64,000 nucleotides of DNA from Streptomyces sclerotialus (GTDB lineage Bacteria > Actinomycetota > Actinomycetes > Streptomycetales > Streptomycetaceae), in the NCBI RefSeq assembly GCF_040907265.1, contig NZ_JBFOHP010000002.1, forward strand, positions 3,558,501 to 3,622,500. The letters run 5' to 3'. Both the position numbers and the translations under genes were made by a program. A model generated the notes under the pieces. That model ran no database searches. It was not told the DNA's origin and was given only the letters and a program-made list of their open reading frames with translations. Positions 8,759 to 60,039 of the stretch are shown here, one piece after another; within the stretch, counting starts at the first letter, position 1, and every line of letters begins with the position of its first letter.

Positions 8759-9073
8759 GAAAAGGCTTCCGTCCCAGGGAGTCGGACAACGCGAACCACC
8801 GGCCGCTTCTTCACCGCGGGCTGGGCGCGACGCACGGGGCGTACGTGACGCCGGCAGCCGGTGCGCGGTGAGCGGGCCGGGGTTTCCCAGGGTACGCCCG
8901 ACCGCCGACAGCCACCGGCCGTACCGGCCTCCGGCACCCGTCCGCCCTGGCCCGCGCCGGTCCGCCCTCGCCCGCTCCGGTGCGCGGCTGTCCCGTTCCA
9001 CGAGACGACCCGTTCCGCAACCTGGGCCCGCATGGAATGGTGTCCGGTACACGAATACGGCGGAGGGGGCACG

Positions 9074-53518: not shown

Positions 53519-54388
53519 TCATTTACCCGCGCGGGAGTCACCACGCTCCGCGTTCTTCGCCGCCACGACCGCGTCGAAGACCTCCCGCTTGGGTACGCCC
53601 GCCTCGGCCGCGACCCCCGCGATGGCCTCCTTGCGCCGCTCGCCGGCCTCCTCCCGGACCCGCACCCGGCGCACCAGTTCCTCGGGCCCGAGGTCGCCGG
53701 GGCCCGGCTCGGGCGCGCCCTCCACCACGATCGTGATCTCGCCGCGCACCCCTTCGGCCGCCCACTCGGCCAGCTCACCGAGCGGCCCGCGGCGGACCTC
53801 CTCGTACGTCTTCGTCAGCTCGCGGCAGACGGCGCCGCGCCGCTCCGCGCCGAAGACCTCCGCCATCGCGGCGAGCGCGTCGGCCAGCCGGTGCGGCGCC
53901 TCGAAGTACACCAGCGTGCGGCGCTCGGCGGCGACCTCCTTCAGCCGCCCGGTGCGCTCCCCCGCCTTCCGCGGCAGGAACCCCTCGAAGCAGAAACGGT
54001 CCACCGGCAGCCCGGAGACCGCCAGCGCGGTGAGCACGGCCGAGGGCCCCGGCACGGCCGTCACCTTCACACCACGCTCCACGGCCGCCGCCACCAGCCG
54101 GTACCCCGGGTCGGAGACCGAGGGCATGCCCGCGTCGGTGACCAGCAGCACCCGCGCCCCGCCTTCGAGCGCCTCGGCCAGCTCCGGGGTGCGCGCCGAC
54201 TCGTTCCCCTCGAAGTACGACACCACCCGGCCCGTGGTGTGCACGCCCAGCGCGGTCGTCAGCCGGCGCAGCCTGCGGGTGTCCTCGGCCGCGATCACGT
54301 CGGCGGCGAGCAGCTCGGCGGCCAGCCGCGGCGGTGCGTCCTCGGTGTCGCCGATGGGGGTCCCTGCGAGTACGAGCGTTCCAGTCAC
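53519..54388 (-). CDS. rsmI: 16S rRNA (cytidine1402-2'-O)-methyltransferase
   Basis: RsmI methylates the ribose of C1402 in the 16S rRNA decoding centre. The 289-residue protein starts at a GTG and has the tetrapyrrole-methylase fold: LVLAGTPIGDTEDAPPRL, IAAEDTRRLRRL, LLVTDAGMPSVSDPGYRLV, PGPSAVLTALAVSGLP and FLPRKAGER. It is divergent from pmt, with about 98 bases between. Confidence 0.96.
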   Translation of the reverse strand: MTGTLVLAGTPIGDTEDAPPRLAAELLAADVIAAEDTRRLRRLTTALGVHTTGRVVSYFEGNESARTPELAEALEGGARVLLVTDAGMPSVSDPGYRLVAAAVERGVKVTAVPGPSAVLTALAVSGLPVDRFCFEGFLPRKAGERTGRLKEVAAERRTLVYFEAPHRLADALAAMAEVFGAERRGAVCRELTKTYEEVRRGPLGELAEWAAEGVRGEITIVVEGAPEPGPGDLGPEELVRRVRVREEAGERRKEAIAGVAAEAGVPKREVFDAVVAAKNAERGDSRAGK

Positions 54389-54486
54389 GGCCCCATCCTT
54401 TCAGGCGCACCGGCATCCTTCCCGCCGCGCGGAGAGACGGGCCGGAGAGACGCGCCTCTCACAGACCGCTTCCCTACGATGGCCCG

Positions 54487-56244
54487 GTGACGAGTGACAC
54501 CGCGACCAACGACCGGCGTGCCGACGACCACCGCCGGCCCCCGGCGGCCGCCGCGCGGGCGCCCCACGGCGGCGTCCTGGCGCCGACCGCCTGGCTGCGG
54601 CGGCTGCGCCGCTTCGGCTACACCGCACGCGCGGACCGGGACGTACGCACCCGGCTGCTCGCACCCTTCCCCGCCCCACAGGTCTCCCCCGGCCTCGCCC
54701 GGCTCGCCGCCTGGGGCCTCCCCCTGCTCGTCGCGCTCCTCGCCGGCATCCTGCGCTTCTGGCGCCTGGGCAGCCCGGACAAGGTGATATTCGACGAGAC
54801 GTACTACCCCAAGGACGCCTGGTCCCTGCTGCAGTACGGCTACGAGGGCACCTGGGCGAAGAACGCCAACGACGCGCTGGTCGGCGACCCGTCACGCATC
54901 CTGCTCAGCCCCGAGCACTCCTACGTCGTCCACCCGCCCGTCGGGAAGTGGATGATCGCGCTGGGCGAGTGGGCCTTCGGCATGAACCCCTTCGGCTGGC
55001 GCTTCATGACGGCCCTCCTCGGCACCCTCTCGGTGCTGATGATCTGCCGCATCGGCCGCCGTCTGCTGCGCTCCACCACCCTCGGCTGTCTGGCGGGCCT
55101 GCTGCTCGCCGTGGACGGCCTGCACTTCGTCATGAGCCGCACGGCGCTCCTCGACCTCATCGTCATGTTCTGGGTCGTCGCCGCGTTCGGCTGCCTCCTC
55201 GTCGACCGGGACCGCACCCGCGCCCGGCTCGCCGCCGCGCTGCCCGTCGGGGAGGACGGCCTCGCCCGCCCCGACGAGGGGACCGGCGACCGGCTGCGCC
55301 TGGGGTGGCGCCCCTGGCGCCTGGCCGCCGGCCTCTGCCTCGGCCTCTCCGCCGCCACCAAGTGGAACGGCCTGTACTTCCTCGCCGCGTTCGCGCTGAT
55401 GTCGGTCCTCTGGGACGCCGCAGCCCGCCGCACGGCGGGCGCCCGCCACCCGTACCGCTCGGCCCTCCGCCGCGACGTCGTACCGGCCTTCCTCTCCACC
55501 GTCGTCCTCGCGGCGGCCGCCTACCTCGCCTCCTGGAGCGGCTGGATCGCCACCAAGGGCGGCTACTACCGCGACTGGGCCACCACCCCCGAAGGCCGCG
55601 CGTCCGGCTGGACCTGGCTGCCCGACTGGCTGCGCAGCCTGTGGCACTACCAGCACGAGGTCTACGAGTTCCACACCCACCTGACGTCCACCCACACCTA
55701 CCAGTCCAACCCCTGGAGCTGGCTGGTCCTCGGCCGCCCGGTCTCCTACTTCTACGAGGACCCCAAGGCCGGCCAGGACGGCTGCACGGCCGCCGAGGGC
55801 TGCGCCCGCGAGGTCCTCGCGCTCGGCACCCCGCTCCTGTGGTGGGCCGGCTGCTTCGCCCTGCTGTACGTCCTCTACCGCTGGCTGTTCCAGCGCGACT
55901 GGCGGGCCGGCGCGATCGCCTGCGGCATCGCCGCCGGCTACCTCCCCTGGTTCCTCTACCAGGAGCGCACGATCTTCCTCTTCTACGCGGTCGTCTTCGT
56001 CCCGTTCCTCTGCCTCGCCCTGGCCATGACGCTCGGCGCCGTCATCGGCCGCCCCACGGAATCCCCGTCGTCCCCTGCCCCCCTCCTCACCCAGGAACGC
56101 CGCCGAACAGCCGGCATCGTCACCGTCGGCATCCTGGTCCTCTTGATCATCTGGAACTTCATCTACTTCTACCCGGTCTACACGGGCCTTCCGATCCCCA
56201 AGTCGGCATGGCAGGGGCGGATGTGGCTGGACACGTGGGTGTAG
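54487..56244 (+). CDS. pmt: Dolichyl/polyprenyl-phosphate-mannose protein mannosyltransferase
   Basis: Pmt O-mannosylates secreted proteins on Thr/Ser using polyprenyl-phospho-mannose. The 585-residue membrane enzyme starts at a GTG and has the GT39 catalytic Asp-Glu in VIFDETYYPKDAW, HPPVGKWMIALGEW, and many membrane helices including LSAATKWNGLYFL. The C-terminus (SAWQGRMWLDTWV) falls in an 83-base direct repeat, so the gene end appears to have been rebuilt by an inserted island without changing the protein. In S. coelicolor, the pmt product is needed for infection by phage phiC31. Confidence 0.95.
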   Translation: MTSDTATNDRRADDHRRPPAAAARAPHGGVLAPTAWLRRLRRFGYTARADRDVRTRLLAPFPAPQVSPGLARLAAWGLPLLVALLAGILRFWRLGSPDKVIFDETYYPKDAWSLLQYGYEGTWAKNANDALVGDPSRILLSPEHSYVVHPPVGKWMIALGEWAFGMNPFGWRFMTALLGTLSVLMICRIGRRLLRSTTLGCLAGLLLAVDGLHFVMSRTALLDLIVMFWVVAAFGCLLVDRDRTRARLAAALPVGEDGLARPDEGTGDRLRLGWRPWRLAAGLCLGLSAATKWNGLYFLAAFALMSVLWDAAARRTAGARHPYRSALRRDVVPAFLSTVVLAAAAYLASWSGWIATKGGYYRDWATTPEGRASGWTWLPDWLRSLWHYQHEVYEFHTHLTSTHTYQSNPWSWLVLGRPVSYFYEDPKAGQDGCTAAEGCAREVLALGTPLLWWAGCFALLYVLYRWLFQRDWRAGAIACGIAAGYLPWFLYQERTIFLFYAVVFVPFLCLALAMTLGAVIGRPTESPSSPAPLLTQERRRTAGIVTVGILVLLIIWNFIYFYPVYTGLPIPKSAWQGRMWLDTWV

Positions 56245-56245
56245 C
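56163..56245 (+). repeat. Left attachment-type repeat (attL) inside pmt
   Basis: These 83 bases begin CTACTTCTACCCGG and end GTGGGTGTAGC. They cover the last 27 codons or so and the stop codon of pmt. The copy at 59957-60039 is identical at every position. Confidence 0.9.
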
Positions 56246-56721: not shown

Positions 56722-57798
56722 ATGGCAAACGGCGTTGAGCGCATCGTGAATCTCGATAGCCTACTATTGGATCCGAATAACTATCGATTCCAAGATGATC
56801 CGAGTTTCCAATTCGCGCAGCCCGCACGGTTCCACGAACCCATGGTGCAGCGCAAAGCCTTCGAACGCATCCGCGGGGAAGGCATAAACGACCTAAAGGC
56901 TTCGATCAAGCACAACGGGTTCCTCACTTTCGAGCGCATCATAGTTCGTCCCTATGAACGCCCGGGGCTTTTTGTTGTAATTGAGGGCAATAGGCGAGTA
57001 GCCGCACTTCGGTCACTAAAGCAGGACCATGAAGCGGGAATCGAGGTCCCAGAAAGCGTAGTAGCTGTCTTCAACGAGCTCCCCGTCGCATGCGTCGAGA
57101 GCGATGATGGTGCTCTTCATCTCTCCCTGATGGGAATTCGGCATGTTAGCGGAGTGCGCCAATGGGGCTCATACCAGAGTTCTAAATTGGTATCTGAGCT
57201 ACACGATGAGCATGATTTGGAGTTTTCAGAGATTGGTGCACGCCTGGGGATGTCCACCCGGGAAGTGACTCGCCGCTATCGCGCGTTCAAGGCGTTGCGC
57301 CAAATGGAGGAAGATGAGGAGTTCGCGGAATACTGCGAACGACGAATGTATCCCATGTTTCACGAGGCAGTTTCTCAGCCCCTGATTCGCCAATGGCTCC
57401 AGTGGGATGAAGGATCCTCGGAATTCAAAGACGAGACGAATCTTCGCCACTTCTACGAACTGATCGCCTCCACTCAAAATGATGAAGGCATAGAAACTCG
57501 GGCAAAGATCACAACAGCCAACGAGGTGCGCGAACTCAAGACAATCATCGTCTCCCCAGAAGCCCGTATGGTTCTGTCCGACCCTTCACGCAGCTTCACT
57601 GAGGCCCTCGCTGTAGCCAGGGCAGAAGAACTGCAGCACGCCTGGACTACGCAAGTTGCCGAGGCGAATAAGGCGCTACTCGGCATCCCAGCCTTGGAGC
57701 TCAGGAAACTGGAACCTGAGCATGTGAGCATTCTAGAGACACTGAGTCAGACGCTACAGGACGTTATCGACACGTACCGTCGACTCAAAGACTCGTAA
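56722..57798 (+). CDS. ParB/Srx-fold nuclease-like protein with HTH
   Basis: This 358-residue protein starts at an ATG with GAGGG 8 bases upstream. Residues about 11-95 form a ParB N-terminal domain: LDSLLLDPNNYRF, INDLKASIKHNGF and the nucleotide-site motif VIEGNRRVAALRSL (GNRR at 89-92). MGIRHVSGVRQWGSYQSSKLV (137-157) matches the third ParB box. An HTH follows (EFSEIGARLGMSTREVTRRYRAFKAL, 168-192), then a helical C-terminus of unknown type. There is no ParA, and the gene is not near the chromosome origin. GC content is far below the neighbours. The stop overlaps the next start (TAATG), so it works with the Mrr-like protein. DNA sensing or nicking are possible roles. Confidence 0.8.
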   Translation: MANGVERIVNLDSLLLDPNNYRFQDDPSFQFAQPARFHEPMVQRKAFERIRGEGINDLKASIKHNGFLTFERIIVRPYERPGLFVVIEGNRRVAALRSLKQDHEAGIEVPESVVAVFNELPVACVESDDGALHLSLMGIRHVSGVRQWGSYQSSKLVSELHDEHDLEFSEIGARLGMSTREVTRRYRAFKALRQMEEDEEFAEYCERRMYPMFHEAVSQPLIRQWLQWDEGSSEFKDETNLRHFYELIASTQNDEGIETRAKITTANEVRELKTIIVSPEARMVLSDPSRSFTEALAVARAEELQHAWTTQVAEANKALLGIPALELRKLEPEHVSILETLSQTLQDVIDTYRRLKDS

Positions 57799-58691
57799 TG
57801 GCTAGACCGAGACTGAACATCGTCACCGATCGGATAATAGAATCTGTTGGCGTAGATGATCCGCCTCGCTCTATTATCGAGTTATTGAAGGAGGCATACC
57901 AGCATCTTTCCGTGCCTGCACTCGAGTCTCAGATGTGGGCTGAGGAAGTAGCAGACAGAGCCCTTCAACAACTCGTCCGCCTGGCAAATCAGCTATTAGA
58001 AGACGGACGCAGTACCCTCTTCGCTTTCAACTCCTCCGACGCACGCTATGTACAAGGCGCCTGCTTCGTCGAGATCGGCGTGGATGATGAGGATGCAGCA
58101 GAGCAAAAGCGTAGACGCAGCGCTGCTCATCGAATGAGCTCCGCCATTGGACGACTCGAACCAGCAGAATTTGAGAAGCTGTGCGTCATCGCCCTGGAAA
58201 GCATGGGTGCCTATGACATCAAGCTCACGCCATACCGCGCCGACCAAGGCATAGATTTCTACGGCCGCTTGAGGCTGGGTAGCGCACTTGCCGATATTGC
58301 TGGCTACCCGCCTGTACTCAGTAAATTCTGCGTCTGGGTGGTAGGCCAAGCAAAGCATTTCGAGGCAACTCAGGTAGCAACTTTCGACCTACGTGAACTC
58401 GTAGGATCCATCCAATTGGCACGCAGCGGCGAGTATGGCTTCTCCGGAGACAGGTATCCCGACATGAAGATAAGGTCATGCGATCCAGTATTCACCATCT
58501 TCATGACTAGCGGGACGATAAGCAGGGACGCTTGGTCGCTATGCAGAAACAGTGGCGTAATAGCGATTGACGGAGATTCCTTTTCGCACATTTTGGCGCA
58601 ATCGGATATGAAATTGAGTACAGCGAACGGACAGACAGTTGATGAGCTGAAAAAGTTTATCGAATCTTCGCAACTTTCCAGGAAGCAGTAG
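57798..58691 (+). CDS. Mrr-like (PD-D/ExK, QxK) restriction endonuclease
   Basis: A 297-residue protein overlapping the ParB-like gene by one base. Residues about 118-215 form an Mrr-type catalytic domain: LEPAEFEKLCVIALESMG (helix with Glu), DQGIDFYG (catalytic Asp153 region), then VVGQAKHF (Gln184-x-Lys186) and LRELVGSIQLARSG. The C-terminal FIMTSGT-like strand (FTIFMTSGTISRDA) and VIAIDGDSF also fit. Residues 1-115 are helical and unfamiliar, perhaps a recognition or regulatory domain. Leu29 and Leu67 are TTA, rare in Streptomyces and dependent on bldA tRNA. Mrr enzymes cut modified DNA; here specificity is unknown. Confidence 0.8.
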   Translation: MARPRLNIVTDRIIESVGVDDPPRSIIELLKEAYQHLSVPALESQMWAEEVADRALQQLVRLANQLLEDGRSTLFAFNSSDARYVQGACFVEIGVDDEDAAEQKRRRSAAHRMSSAIGRLEPAEFEKLCVIALESMGAYDIKLTPYRADQGIDFYGRLRLGSALADIAGYPPVLSKFCVWVVGQAKHFEATQVATFDLRELVGSIQLARSGEYGFSGDRYPDMKIRSCDPVFTIFMTSGTISRDAWSLCRNSGVIAIDGDSFSHILAQSDMKLSTANGQTVDELKKFIESSQLSRKQ

Positions 58692-59218
58692 TGCCTTCTT
58701 TTGGACTACGAACGCTAGGTCGGTGGGACGGGCTTGGCCGGTAGCCTGCCTGGTTCGGGCGCGAGCATATCCAAGCGGCCGTACGCTGGTTGGCAGTTCG
58801 GGCCGATTTCGTATCTGCCTGCAAATAGCACGCGCGGCCCCGGGCTTGCTCGGCTCGGGACCCGAAGCGTCGGAAAGGTGGCTAGAGCCGTAGAGCCTAC
58901 CGCCCCAGCCACAGCCGATATCGTCCGGACCTCAGTGGTCGGCGTTTCCGCTGCCTCGTGTGTGCGGGCGGACCATCGAGCTGGAGCGGAGGCAGAAGGG
59001 GCAACGCGGCTAGGTGCCGAACCGCGCGCAGCAAGCGGCAGCGAGCCACCTACAGGACACGCACACAGGTGTTACTCAGCCATTGCTTAATCCGCACCTA
59101 CAAGGTGAGGAAGCGAGAACTTGGCCCTGCACCGGGCCGAATCTCCGCGAATACGCTGGTAAGCGCCAGTCCGCCAACCGGGAGAGTGCTCTGCGGATGG
59201 GACCAAAGTCGACAGGGT
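58692..59218. other. Degenerate, apparently non-coding stretch of the island
   Basis: Open frames of 65 to 118 codons exist on both strands but have mixed third-position composition, no ribosome site and no motif I recognise. GC rises again relative to the Mrr-like gene. The region may hold decayed genes, possibly including the missing integrase, but I cannot identify any remnant. Confidence 0.45.
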
Positions 59219-59405
59219 TTACTCGACGATTCGGAGTGGATCACGTCGGGGAAGCTGCAGCCAGGAGACAAGCTGCCCTCCGAGCGCTCGTTGAGCGGGG
59301 ACCTGGAGATCGGGCGTACGGCCCTGCGGCAGGTGCTGGCGCGGCTCGCTTCGGAGAGGTTGATCCGGGCCTACGGGCGGAGCGCGTACCGGGTGGCCGG
59401 CGGAG
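59219..59405 (+). pseudogene. GntR-family winged-helix fragment
   Basis: The reading (D)WITSGKLQPGDKLPSERSLSGDLEIGRTALRQVLARLASERLIRAYGRSAYRV is shared by GntR HTH domains: I report it here as ITSGKLQPGDKLPSERSL, then GRTALRQVLARLASE. The first helix and the start codon are missing, and the frame continues only into the disrupted NUDIX sequence. It is a truncated remnant of a GntR-type gene. Confidence 0.65.
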
Positions 59406-59561
59406 TCACCACAGAGTCCCCGAAGGGCTGGAGCCGTGGAAGATCCATGGGAAGCAAATTCTCTACGACAACCGTTGGGTGAAGCTCGACCTGGTCGACG
59501 TTGAACCGCCCGGCGTGGAGCGAGTTCGAGCACCACGTCGTGAAAGCTTCACCATGTCGCT
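59406..59561 (+). pseudogene. Frame-disrupted N-terminal part of the NUDIX gene
   Basis: The expected NUDIX N-terminus is readable only across three frames: VTTESPKG, then EPWKIHGKQILYDNRWVKL...VEPPGVER, then FEHHVVK, then LHHVAVSAVLHG. The breaks lie near 59427 (one base missing in GGGCTGG), 59521-59524 (extra base in CGAG) and 59546 (extra G). The three lesions argue for decay rather than one sequencing error. Confidence 0.7.
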
Positions 59562-59951
59562 GTGTCGGCCGTGCTGCACGGCGAGGACCGCGTGCTGATG
59601 CTCTGGCGGTACCGCTTCGTCCCACAGCGATGGGGCTGGGAACTCCCCGGCGGGATCGTTGATGCCGGTGAAGACCCGCACGCGACGGCGCTTCGCGAGG
59701 TCGAGGAAGAGACCGGCTGGCGGCCGGAGCGGCTGGAGCACGTGGTCACGTACCAGCCGATGGTGGGTATGGTCGACTCTCCCCACGAGATCTACGTGGG
59801 GCGGGGCGCTCGCCGTGTCGGTAAGCCGACGGACCTCGAAGAAGCCGACCACGGCGTCTGGGTGCCGCTGGCTGACGCACCGGGGCTCATGGCCAAGGGG
59901 CAGTTGATGGGATCGGGCACGCTCGTAGCCCTGTTCCACATCCTGGCCTAG
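59562..59951 (+). CDS. NUDIX hydrolase (C-terminal part of a disrupted gene)
   Basis: From a GTG at 59562 an uninterrupted 129-residue frame encodes most of a NUDIX fold, including the Nudix box GGIVDAGEDPHATALREVEEETGW with all catalytic Glu. The part upstream (ADP-ribose-pyrophosphatase-like N-terminal strands) is present but out of frame. No good ribosome site precedes the GTG, so a functional short protein is doubtful. Substrate, if active, might be a nucleotide sugar. The GC content is like the host's, unlike the ParB/Mrr pair. Confidence 0.7.
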   Translation: MSAVLHGEDRVLMLWRYRFVPQRWGWELPGGIVDAGEDPHATALREVEEETGWRPERLEHVVTYQPMVGMVDSPHEIYVGRGARRVGKPTDLEEADHGVWVPLADAPGLMAKGQLMGSGTLVALFHILA

Positions 59952-59956
59952 CGGGC

Positions 59957-60039
59957 CTACTTCTACCCGGTCTACACGGGCCTTCCGATCCCCAAGTCGG
60001 CATGGCAGGGGCGGATGTGGCTGGACACGTGGGTGTAGC
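59957..60039 (+). repeat. Right attachment-type repeat (attR)
   Basis: This is the perfect 83-base copy of the pmt 3' end at 56163-56245, lying 6 bases after the NUDIX stop. It has no start codon and encodes no protein. It is probably the original chromosomal end of pmt displaced by insertion. Confidence 0.9.

Follow-up and report, generated by a model that had tools for sequence, protein, structure and literature searches.

We analysed a 64,000-nucleotide stretch of the Streptomyces sclerotialus genome (contig NZ_JBFOHP010000002.1, positions 3,558,501 to 3,622,500; this whole stretch is called the window) and concentrated on two adjacent open reading frames (ORFs) in it, ORF A and ORF B. A is predicted to be a protein of the ParB/Noc/KorB fold and B a nuclease of the MspJI/Mrr type, and both genes lie in an island bounded by direct repeats. 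An initial annotation, made from the sequence alone, had proposed that they form a candidate anti-invader system of a new kind. We observed that A and B are coupled and co-inherited as a unit, for which a role in defence is likely.

The two genes overlap by one base: the stop codon TAA of A occupies 57796–57798 and the start codon ATG of B begins at 57798. Their GC contents are 0.537 (A) and 0.521 (B), compared with 0.725 outside the island. Relatives of A were collected by scanning genome contigs with a seven-row A alignment, which gave 363 relatives, and the best 80 of these were kept (L and G numbers in the following denote loci and genomes, respectively). The downstream partners at these 80 loci were typed by an iterative hidden Markov model search. 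It assigned a partner of the Mrr type, which is the type of the window, to 32 loci (one of them, L026, frameshifted), a QC-type nuclease to 25 and a Toprim-like protein to 8. Three more loci (L016, L033 and L037) were typed as Mrr-type by tblastn, bringing the loci with a window-type partner to 35 of the 80; at the remaining 12, the partner is unassigned or fused, the locus is cut by a contig end or there is another neighbour. As the locus types are named by their partners, the fair test of pairing is to take the relatives in the order of listing, which roughly, not strictly, follows similarity. B was adjacent in all 31 of the first-listed relatives (L010–L040), two of these B copies being frameshifted and one cut, and hence the co-conserved pairs that the initial annotation had suggested looking for do occur in other genomes. 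Of the 30 loci at which the distance from A to B was measured, 29 have values from −47 to +29 bp and the other one has 277 bp.

We then compared the divergence of the two genes using alignments of 29 rows for A and 31 rows for B. L013, L018, L024 and L026 were left out of the A alignment, and the broken copies L024 and L026 out of the B alignment. L016, L033 and L037, which the ORF caller had missed, are in neither; A is split in L033, and L037 is cut by a contig end. Over 29 loci, the distances of A and B correlated with r = 0.90, a value reached in none of 5000 permutations, and therefore the two genes have been inherited jointly. The mean pairwise identity over these loci was 0.35 for A and 0.24 for B. 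Between the two Streptomyces pairs, that of the window and L009, nucleotide identity was 76.6% for A and 69.8% for B; the proportions of synonymous differences were 0.81 and 0.82, and those of nonsynonymous differences were 0.07 (A) and 0.19 (B).

In its sequence, A is only weakly ParB-like: the Pfam family ParB_N scored 15.8 bits against a cut-off of 26.3, and the helix-turn-helix (HTH) matches were also below threshold. The AlphaFold model of A has a mean predicted local distance difference test score (pLDDT) of 92.7, and its best Foldseek matches are KorB, Noc and ParB, the first ten having E-values from 2.8e-7 (a KorB co-complex entry) to 3.0e-6, with Noc at 7.5e-7. When solved structures were searched with a profile of A, the top match was the designed repeat protein 8vd6 (8.5e-9), which runs through five HTH-like repeats of A, none of them significant singly. 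It was followed by PadC (2e-4) and Noc (0.003), where GFRR and GERR, respectively, align with the GNRR of A (residues 89–92). The modelled structure thus gives A an N-terminal domain and an HTH of the ParB/KorB/Noc kind, at the level of domains.

Among the positions that are invariant in the A alignment (29 rows, the window included) are L16, D17, N20, R22, R140, W148, F213, E215, R270 and the segment E88–R92. The invariance of E88–R92 is biased, because the scan that supplied most of the rows used the pattern EGN[RT]R; in the six rows obtained without this pattern, five have EGNRR (L003–L006 and L107) and one has EGNTR (L007). R140, W148, F213, E215 and R270 are free of this bias. Judged from these motifs, A appears to keep the GxRR nucleotide-binding P-motif and the HTH, and by analogy with ParB-type proteins it may bind a nucleotide and load as a clamp.

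For B, the Pfam family Mrr_cat was above the cut-off (37.8 versus 21 bits, 2.4e-9). The model of B has a pLDDT of 88.2 and a mainly helical N-terminal half, and its best Foldseek match is MspJI (1.4e-5), followed by AspBHI (6.1e-4) and FokI (1.1e-3). The profile of the B family aligns with the MspJI core DGGVDFIGR...GQAK (5.2e-6). E126, G151, D153, F154, G183, Q184 and K186 are invariant in the 31 aligned B sequences, and D149 is present in at least 90%. The conserved residues point to a PD-(D/E)XK nuclease with an MspJI-type D...QxK core, and B would accordingly be expected to cut DNA. MspJI reads methylcytosine via an SRA-like domain. A Pfam search of B gave no base-reading domain, Mrr_cat being the sole match above the cut-off. 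The initial annotation thus held in its description of the pair itself, namely, a ParB-fold protein with GNRR and HTH motifs, a one-base overlap, an Mrr-type core and a low GC content of both genes, and also in the perfect repeats that bound the island (Table 1).

Table 1. Features in and around the island (positions of the window)
Feature	Position	Strand	Remarks
pmt-like gene	54334..56244	+	3′ end duplicated at 59957–60039; likely attachment site
Left 83-bp direct repeat, att-like	56163..56245	+	At the pmt 3′ end; copy of it
ORF A	56722..57798	+	Predicted ParB/Noc/KorB-fold protein, 358 amino acids: ParB-type N domain, HTH, helical C-terminal part
GNRR codons of A (P-motif, residues 89–92)	56986..56997	+	Aligns with GFRR (PadC) and GERR (Noc)
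HTH region of A (about residues 168–196)	57223..57309	+	Sub-threshold HTH matches; model helices 168–175 and 179–196
ORF B	57798..58691	+	Predicted MspJI/Mrr-type PD-(D/E)XK nuclease, 297 amino acids; overlaps A by one base
Catalytic-core codons of B (D149...D153...Q184-A-K186)	58242..58355	+	Conservation; aligns with the MspJI core
Structured noncoding element, 197 model positions	58729..58926	+	Covariance-model match of 148.8 bits (this copy is one of the 21 model rows); covariation
GntR-family HTH	58958..59482	+	Pfam GntR 1.1e-13, residues 93–146
NUDIX hydrolase	59562..59951	+	Pfam NUDIX 6e-18
Right 83-bp direct repeat, att-like	59957..60039	+	Perfect copy of the pmt 3′ end

The two 83-bp repeats are 100% identical, and the identity extends no further on either side. 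The gene from which they derive we take to be pmt, encoding a protein O-mannosyltransferase. In another genome of the same genus (G019), the pmt 3′ end occurs twice, 12.8 kb apart (97.8% identity over 90 bp), and a tyrosine integrase, a Prim-Pol protein, an FtsK-like protein (just above the cut-off) and a GntR-UTRA regulator are encoded between the two copies. Att repeats accompanied by GntR and NUDIX genes, as well as elements like that of G019, presumably represent actinomycete integrative conjugative elements. As an element with an integrase occupies this pmt site in G019, the island of the window looks like the relic of an integrative conjugative element inserted at the pmt 3′ end. It is at most a relic, since neither Phage_integrase nor Resolvase gave a match between the repeats of the window, the nearest Phage_integrase found in the scan of its own genome being ∼79 kb away. 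From its domain content, the GntR-family HTH gene is probably a remnant of the regulatory module of the element.

We also scanned the neighbourhood of the window-type pairs, covering 138 of 181 neighbour proteins at 33 loci (short proteins and several long ones were dropped; ten proteins were scanned alone, some of them also among the 138). The matches listed comprise 25 of 254 and 25 of 158 families, which are families and not distinct proteins. Among them are parts of type I, II and III restriction systems, AbiEi, AbiEii, AbiP2 and PADLOC candidates, together with resolvases, integrases, transposases and conjugation genes; defence genes, for which the initial annotation had proposed to check, thus occur near such pairs. 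Near the other Streptomyces pair (L009, 4871–6631), we noticed NUDIX, HD-domain and HTH/PLD-like genes and transposase-like ORFs, and because of these genes that pair may also ride on an element. A duplicate of the dapD 3′ end beside it, as long as that of pmt, was not found, and the matches were short and weak.

Downstream of B, the island of the window also holds a structured noncoding element (Table 1), which adjoins both Streptomyces pairs (the L009 copy lies at 8836–9017). With a 91-bp query it was matched in 62 of 150 genomes of the genus (E 1e-3), and with a 191-bp query in 61 of 295 (1e-20), the own genome being included in both counts; its covariance model, applied with strict filters, found it in 5 of 296 phylum-sample genomes, all belonging to the genus of the window. 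We aligned 21 copies, including those of the two pairs (other copies are at L116–L161). They fit a 50-pair structure with 93.8% of the cells paired and 22 pairs changed on both sides, values that none of 500 shuffles reached; this alignment is also the source of the structure, and kinship among rows can raise values above those of shuffles. The covariation is therefore strong evidence, not proof, of a structure. The case for a structure rests on this covariation, as the window copy by itself folds no better than its shuffles (z = −0.04). The + strand is favoured because G-U cells outnumber C-A cells (125 versus 17). Rfam gave no match to the element in four loci; within the island it gave just two matches, which fell far short of the gathering score and lay within ORF A on the opposite strand. 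We would guess that the element is a single-strand replication origin or an RNA.

GntR, NUDIX or HD genes lie 3′ of the element in 29 of 46 loci and 5′ of it in one, and it is the 5′ side that carries variable cargo. In a scan of the slot loci L116–L145, 13 of 20 cargo proteins, coming from 19 of the 30 loci, matched PADLOC at ≤1e-5, with no random control set. The loci left out were L117 (a near-copy of L116), L126, L132, L133, L138, L139 and L141–L145. This was our own choice, and some of these loci have long ORFs, so the proportion may be inflated. The matches to RT_UG22 (1.2e-153), ThsA (9.6e-78), PD-Lambda-5_A (3.3e-195, at L136) and PDC-M68A (7.6e-108) are near full length; others are generic (methyltransferase, ATPase) or weak (LmuB 1.4e-6, PLD_Helicase 1.3e-6). 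Cargo proteins without a PADLOC match (at L121, L122, L123, L124, L125, L134 (744–1478) and L140) are candidates for undescribed defence genes. The structured element may thus help to locate defence genes still unknown in Streptomyces, a genus in which phage contamination of fermentations causes losses, according to one report (PMC13350457). At L139, L143 and L145, the short genes 5′ of the element look by eye like the tails of polymorphic toxin cassettes and stand where other loci have their defence cargo.

The distribution of A is sporadic. In the genus sample A was present in 2 of 392 genomes, and in the phylum sample relatives were present in 2 of 396, the own genome being counted in both. 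In the latter sample the partner in the other genome (L107) is of the QC type, so that the window type is represented there by the own genome only; window-type pairs were found across several phyla. Among viruses, a single-sequence scan gave no A relative, and a profile scan gave 33 loci, of which 5 are window-type, 12 Toprim-type, 9 QC-type and 7 without an assigned B. A quick tree of 82 A rows, in which long branches were flagged, separated two halves, each with a value of 100 in the Shimodaira–Hasegawa-like approximate likelihood ratio test: one of 34 rows with all 29 QC rows and 5 others, and the other of 48 rows with 8 rows besides those of the Mrr and Toprim types.

The relatives of A with other partners have features of their own. 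In the QC-type nuclease-like family (L063, L065, L003, L004, L005 and others), the lysine of QxK is mostly replaced; a rough regular expression applied to 29 sequences gave QCA in 19, QCK in 7, QCG in 2 and HCA in 1, and it is possible that the catalytic lysine has migrated. The Toprim-type A proteins are long, 709–741 amino acids at L041, L047, L049, L050, L053–L055 and L067 and up to 762 when the viral loci L164–L172 and L175–L177 are included. Judged from motifs by eye, their C-terminal half is ATPase-like and their partner Toprim-like, which is reminiscent of OLD or PARIS.

We compared the pair with known systems. One close likeness is to PDC-M38A, a PADLOC candidate, whose ParB half matches residues 7–352 of A (4.5e-64); as A covers only positions 10–362 of the 715 of this profile, the likeness is not full-length. 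From their length, the Toprim-type loci (A of 709–741 amino acids) may be what PDC-M38A describes. The N-terminus of PD-Lambda-5_A, of the system PD-lambda-5, also matches A (1.5e-11), the best match being between residues 7–102 of A (∼96 residues) and 5–90 of 466, again less than full length; a PD-Lambda-5_A also occupies the slot at L136, in another genome of the genus. GmrSD likewise combines a ParB/Srx-fold protein with a nuclease in restriction (PMC4619093), but it consists of DUF262 and HNH, and Pfam matched neither domain in A or B, even with E allowed up to 1. With MspJI and AspBHI, B shares the nuclease core DxGIDFxG...GQAK, whereas in B no base-reading domain is recognized, and a gene of its own, of the ParB type, is coupled to that of B. 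A shares its domain fold, GxRR motif and HTH with KorB, Noc and ParB, but differs from them in its C-terminal part, in its nuclease partner and in that linkage to ParA is near absent. Unlike in type II restriction-modification, no cognate methyltransferase is adjacent (search with PF00145 only; its matches are ∼2.5 Mb or more away). Within the literature in reach, which leaves out most subscription papers and preprints, we found no paper on exactly the A and B pair. The view of the initial annotation that no described system has this composition therefore stands as far as the exact pair is concerned, but the pair is less isolated than that view implied, given PDC-M38A, GmrSD and PD-Lambda-5_A.

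The folds, the motifs, the consistent pairing, the sporadic spread and the slot context together make the defence role likely. We think it rather probable that A and B form a two-gene defence cassette in which A directs B to foreign DNA, and that this cassette was the cargo with which an integrative conjugative element entered pmt at its 3′ end. A would provide recognition by binding a feature of the incoming DNA and might then close as a nucleotide-gated clamp; it would bring or activate B, which would cut this DNA. Computation shows the domain-level folds, the motifs, the coupling and co-inheritance of the genes and their mobile and defence context, whereas we infer nucleotide binding, clamp loading, the contact between A and B, the cutting of DNA and the invader as the target. 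A is given the part of recognition, and of a nucleotide-gated clamp, because ParB-type proteins behave in this way (PMC12704722; its main text does not mention Mrr), and because B has no recognized reading domain. More tentatively, with less than even confidence, we propose that A loads on the invader, spreads as a ParB-type sliding clamp and recruits a nuclease lacking its own recognition domain, and that the ParB module can be swapped between several effectors, namely, an MspJI-type nuclease, a QC-type nuclease with a methyltransferase, and an ATPase with Toprim. If so, the ParB-type clamp, familiar from the partition of chromosomes, would serve to target a restriction nuclease as well, and with one sensor and exchangeable effectors it would become directly testable how a clamp tells foreign from own DNA.

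Several points weigh against the defence cassette. The Foldseek template-modelling scores (query-normalized) are low both for A (0.19–0.41, with large root-mean-square deviations) and for B (0.31–0.42), and because of this the fold likeness of A is one of domains, not a superposition of the whole chain. Plain joint inheritance would also yield the correlation of the A and B distances. A binding site for A was not identified. Several window-type pairs lie beside housekeeping genes (family matches to glnS, gatB, thiC, purL and dapD). In the slot, 7 of the 20 cargo proteins went unmatched by PADLOC at 1e-5, and 11 of the 30 loci were outside the scan.

The DNA methyltransferases often found beside more distant relatives of A speak for the defence cassette and also bear on the alternatives. 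Of the 25 QC-type genome loci, 7 have a C5-methyltransferase homologue as the immediate 3′ neighbour of B, and 5 more have a gene of ∼290 codons with the motif [DNS]PP[YFW] immediately 5′ of A (motif only). At the viral QC loci, the corresponding count for the C5 homologue is 8 of 9; in three Peduoviridae phage records, an annotated DNA methyltransferase adjoins B, and in phage 12474III the trio of A, B and methyltransferase comes after the portal gene, around which a published study sought the P2 defence hotspot (PMC9519451). Of the 32 window-type loci, only one showed a C5 homologue within the flanks retrieved, at a distance of 3 kb, and none of the 5 viral loci did; other methyltransferases are near some of these loci (Eco57I at L032, N6_N4_Mtase at L036). 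In the own genome, C5-methyltransferase genes are located on contig C2, near 1.07, 7.06 and 7.07 Mb, and the pair is at 3.615 Mb.

The rarity of C5 homologues beside the window type would suit a modification-dependent restriction of type IV-like character, with B acting, like MspJI, as its own sensor of a modified base and A serving only as a regulator or accessory protein; the closest solved relatives of B include AspBHI and MspJI, both titled modification-dependent. However, no base-reading domain was matched in B, its model shows a mostly helical N-terminal half, and a nuclease triggered by methylcytosine would need to tolerate the products of the C5-methyltransferase genes of its own genome. 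We regard this explanation as doubtful.

We find it still harder to credit that the pair makes up the restricting part of a restriction-modification system, with the gene of the protecting methyltransferase at another place in the genome. Such an arrangement is suggested by the QC-type relatives, which often adjoin a methyltransferase, and by the own C5 genes listed above; yet these genes are ∼2.5 Mb or more from the pair, and the window-type pairs of several phyla mostly have no C5 gene nearby. The latter counts also disfavour, for the window type, a restriction-modification system that has its own methyltransferase alongside.

Overlapping genes with the nuclease in second place, on the relic of a mobile element, could also be those of a toxin-antitoxin or addiction pair that stabilizes the element, with B as a DNase toxin held in check by A. 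This appears improbable, as A is large, keeps the P-motif and the HTH and is better conserved than B, and as the sister pairs often carry methyltransferases.

Lastly, a function in partition, replication or copy number of the element, with B processing the DNA of the element itself, would agree with the ParB/KorB-type fold of A and its location on the relic, but it is very improbable: linkage to partition genes, the contrary outcome named in the initial annotation, is near absent, since a regular expression for a ParA-like motif matched in the flanks of only 2 of the 80 A loci, one of them judged non-ParA by eye, and in none of the window ORFs of ≥100 amino acids.

Two side observations may be noted. 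On a related theme, a HEPN family has been described in operons with ParB nuclease and DNA methylase genes (PMC3710099). At L007 (4962–6233), on a plasmid of Agrobacterium larrymoorei, a distant ParB-like gene adjoins the annotated genes dndE, dndD, dndC and dndB.

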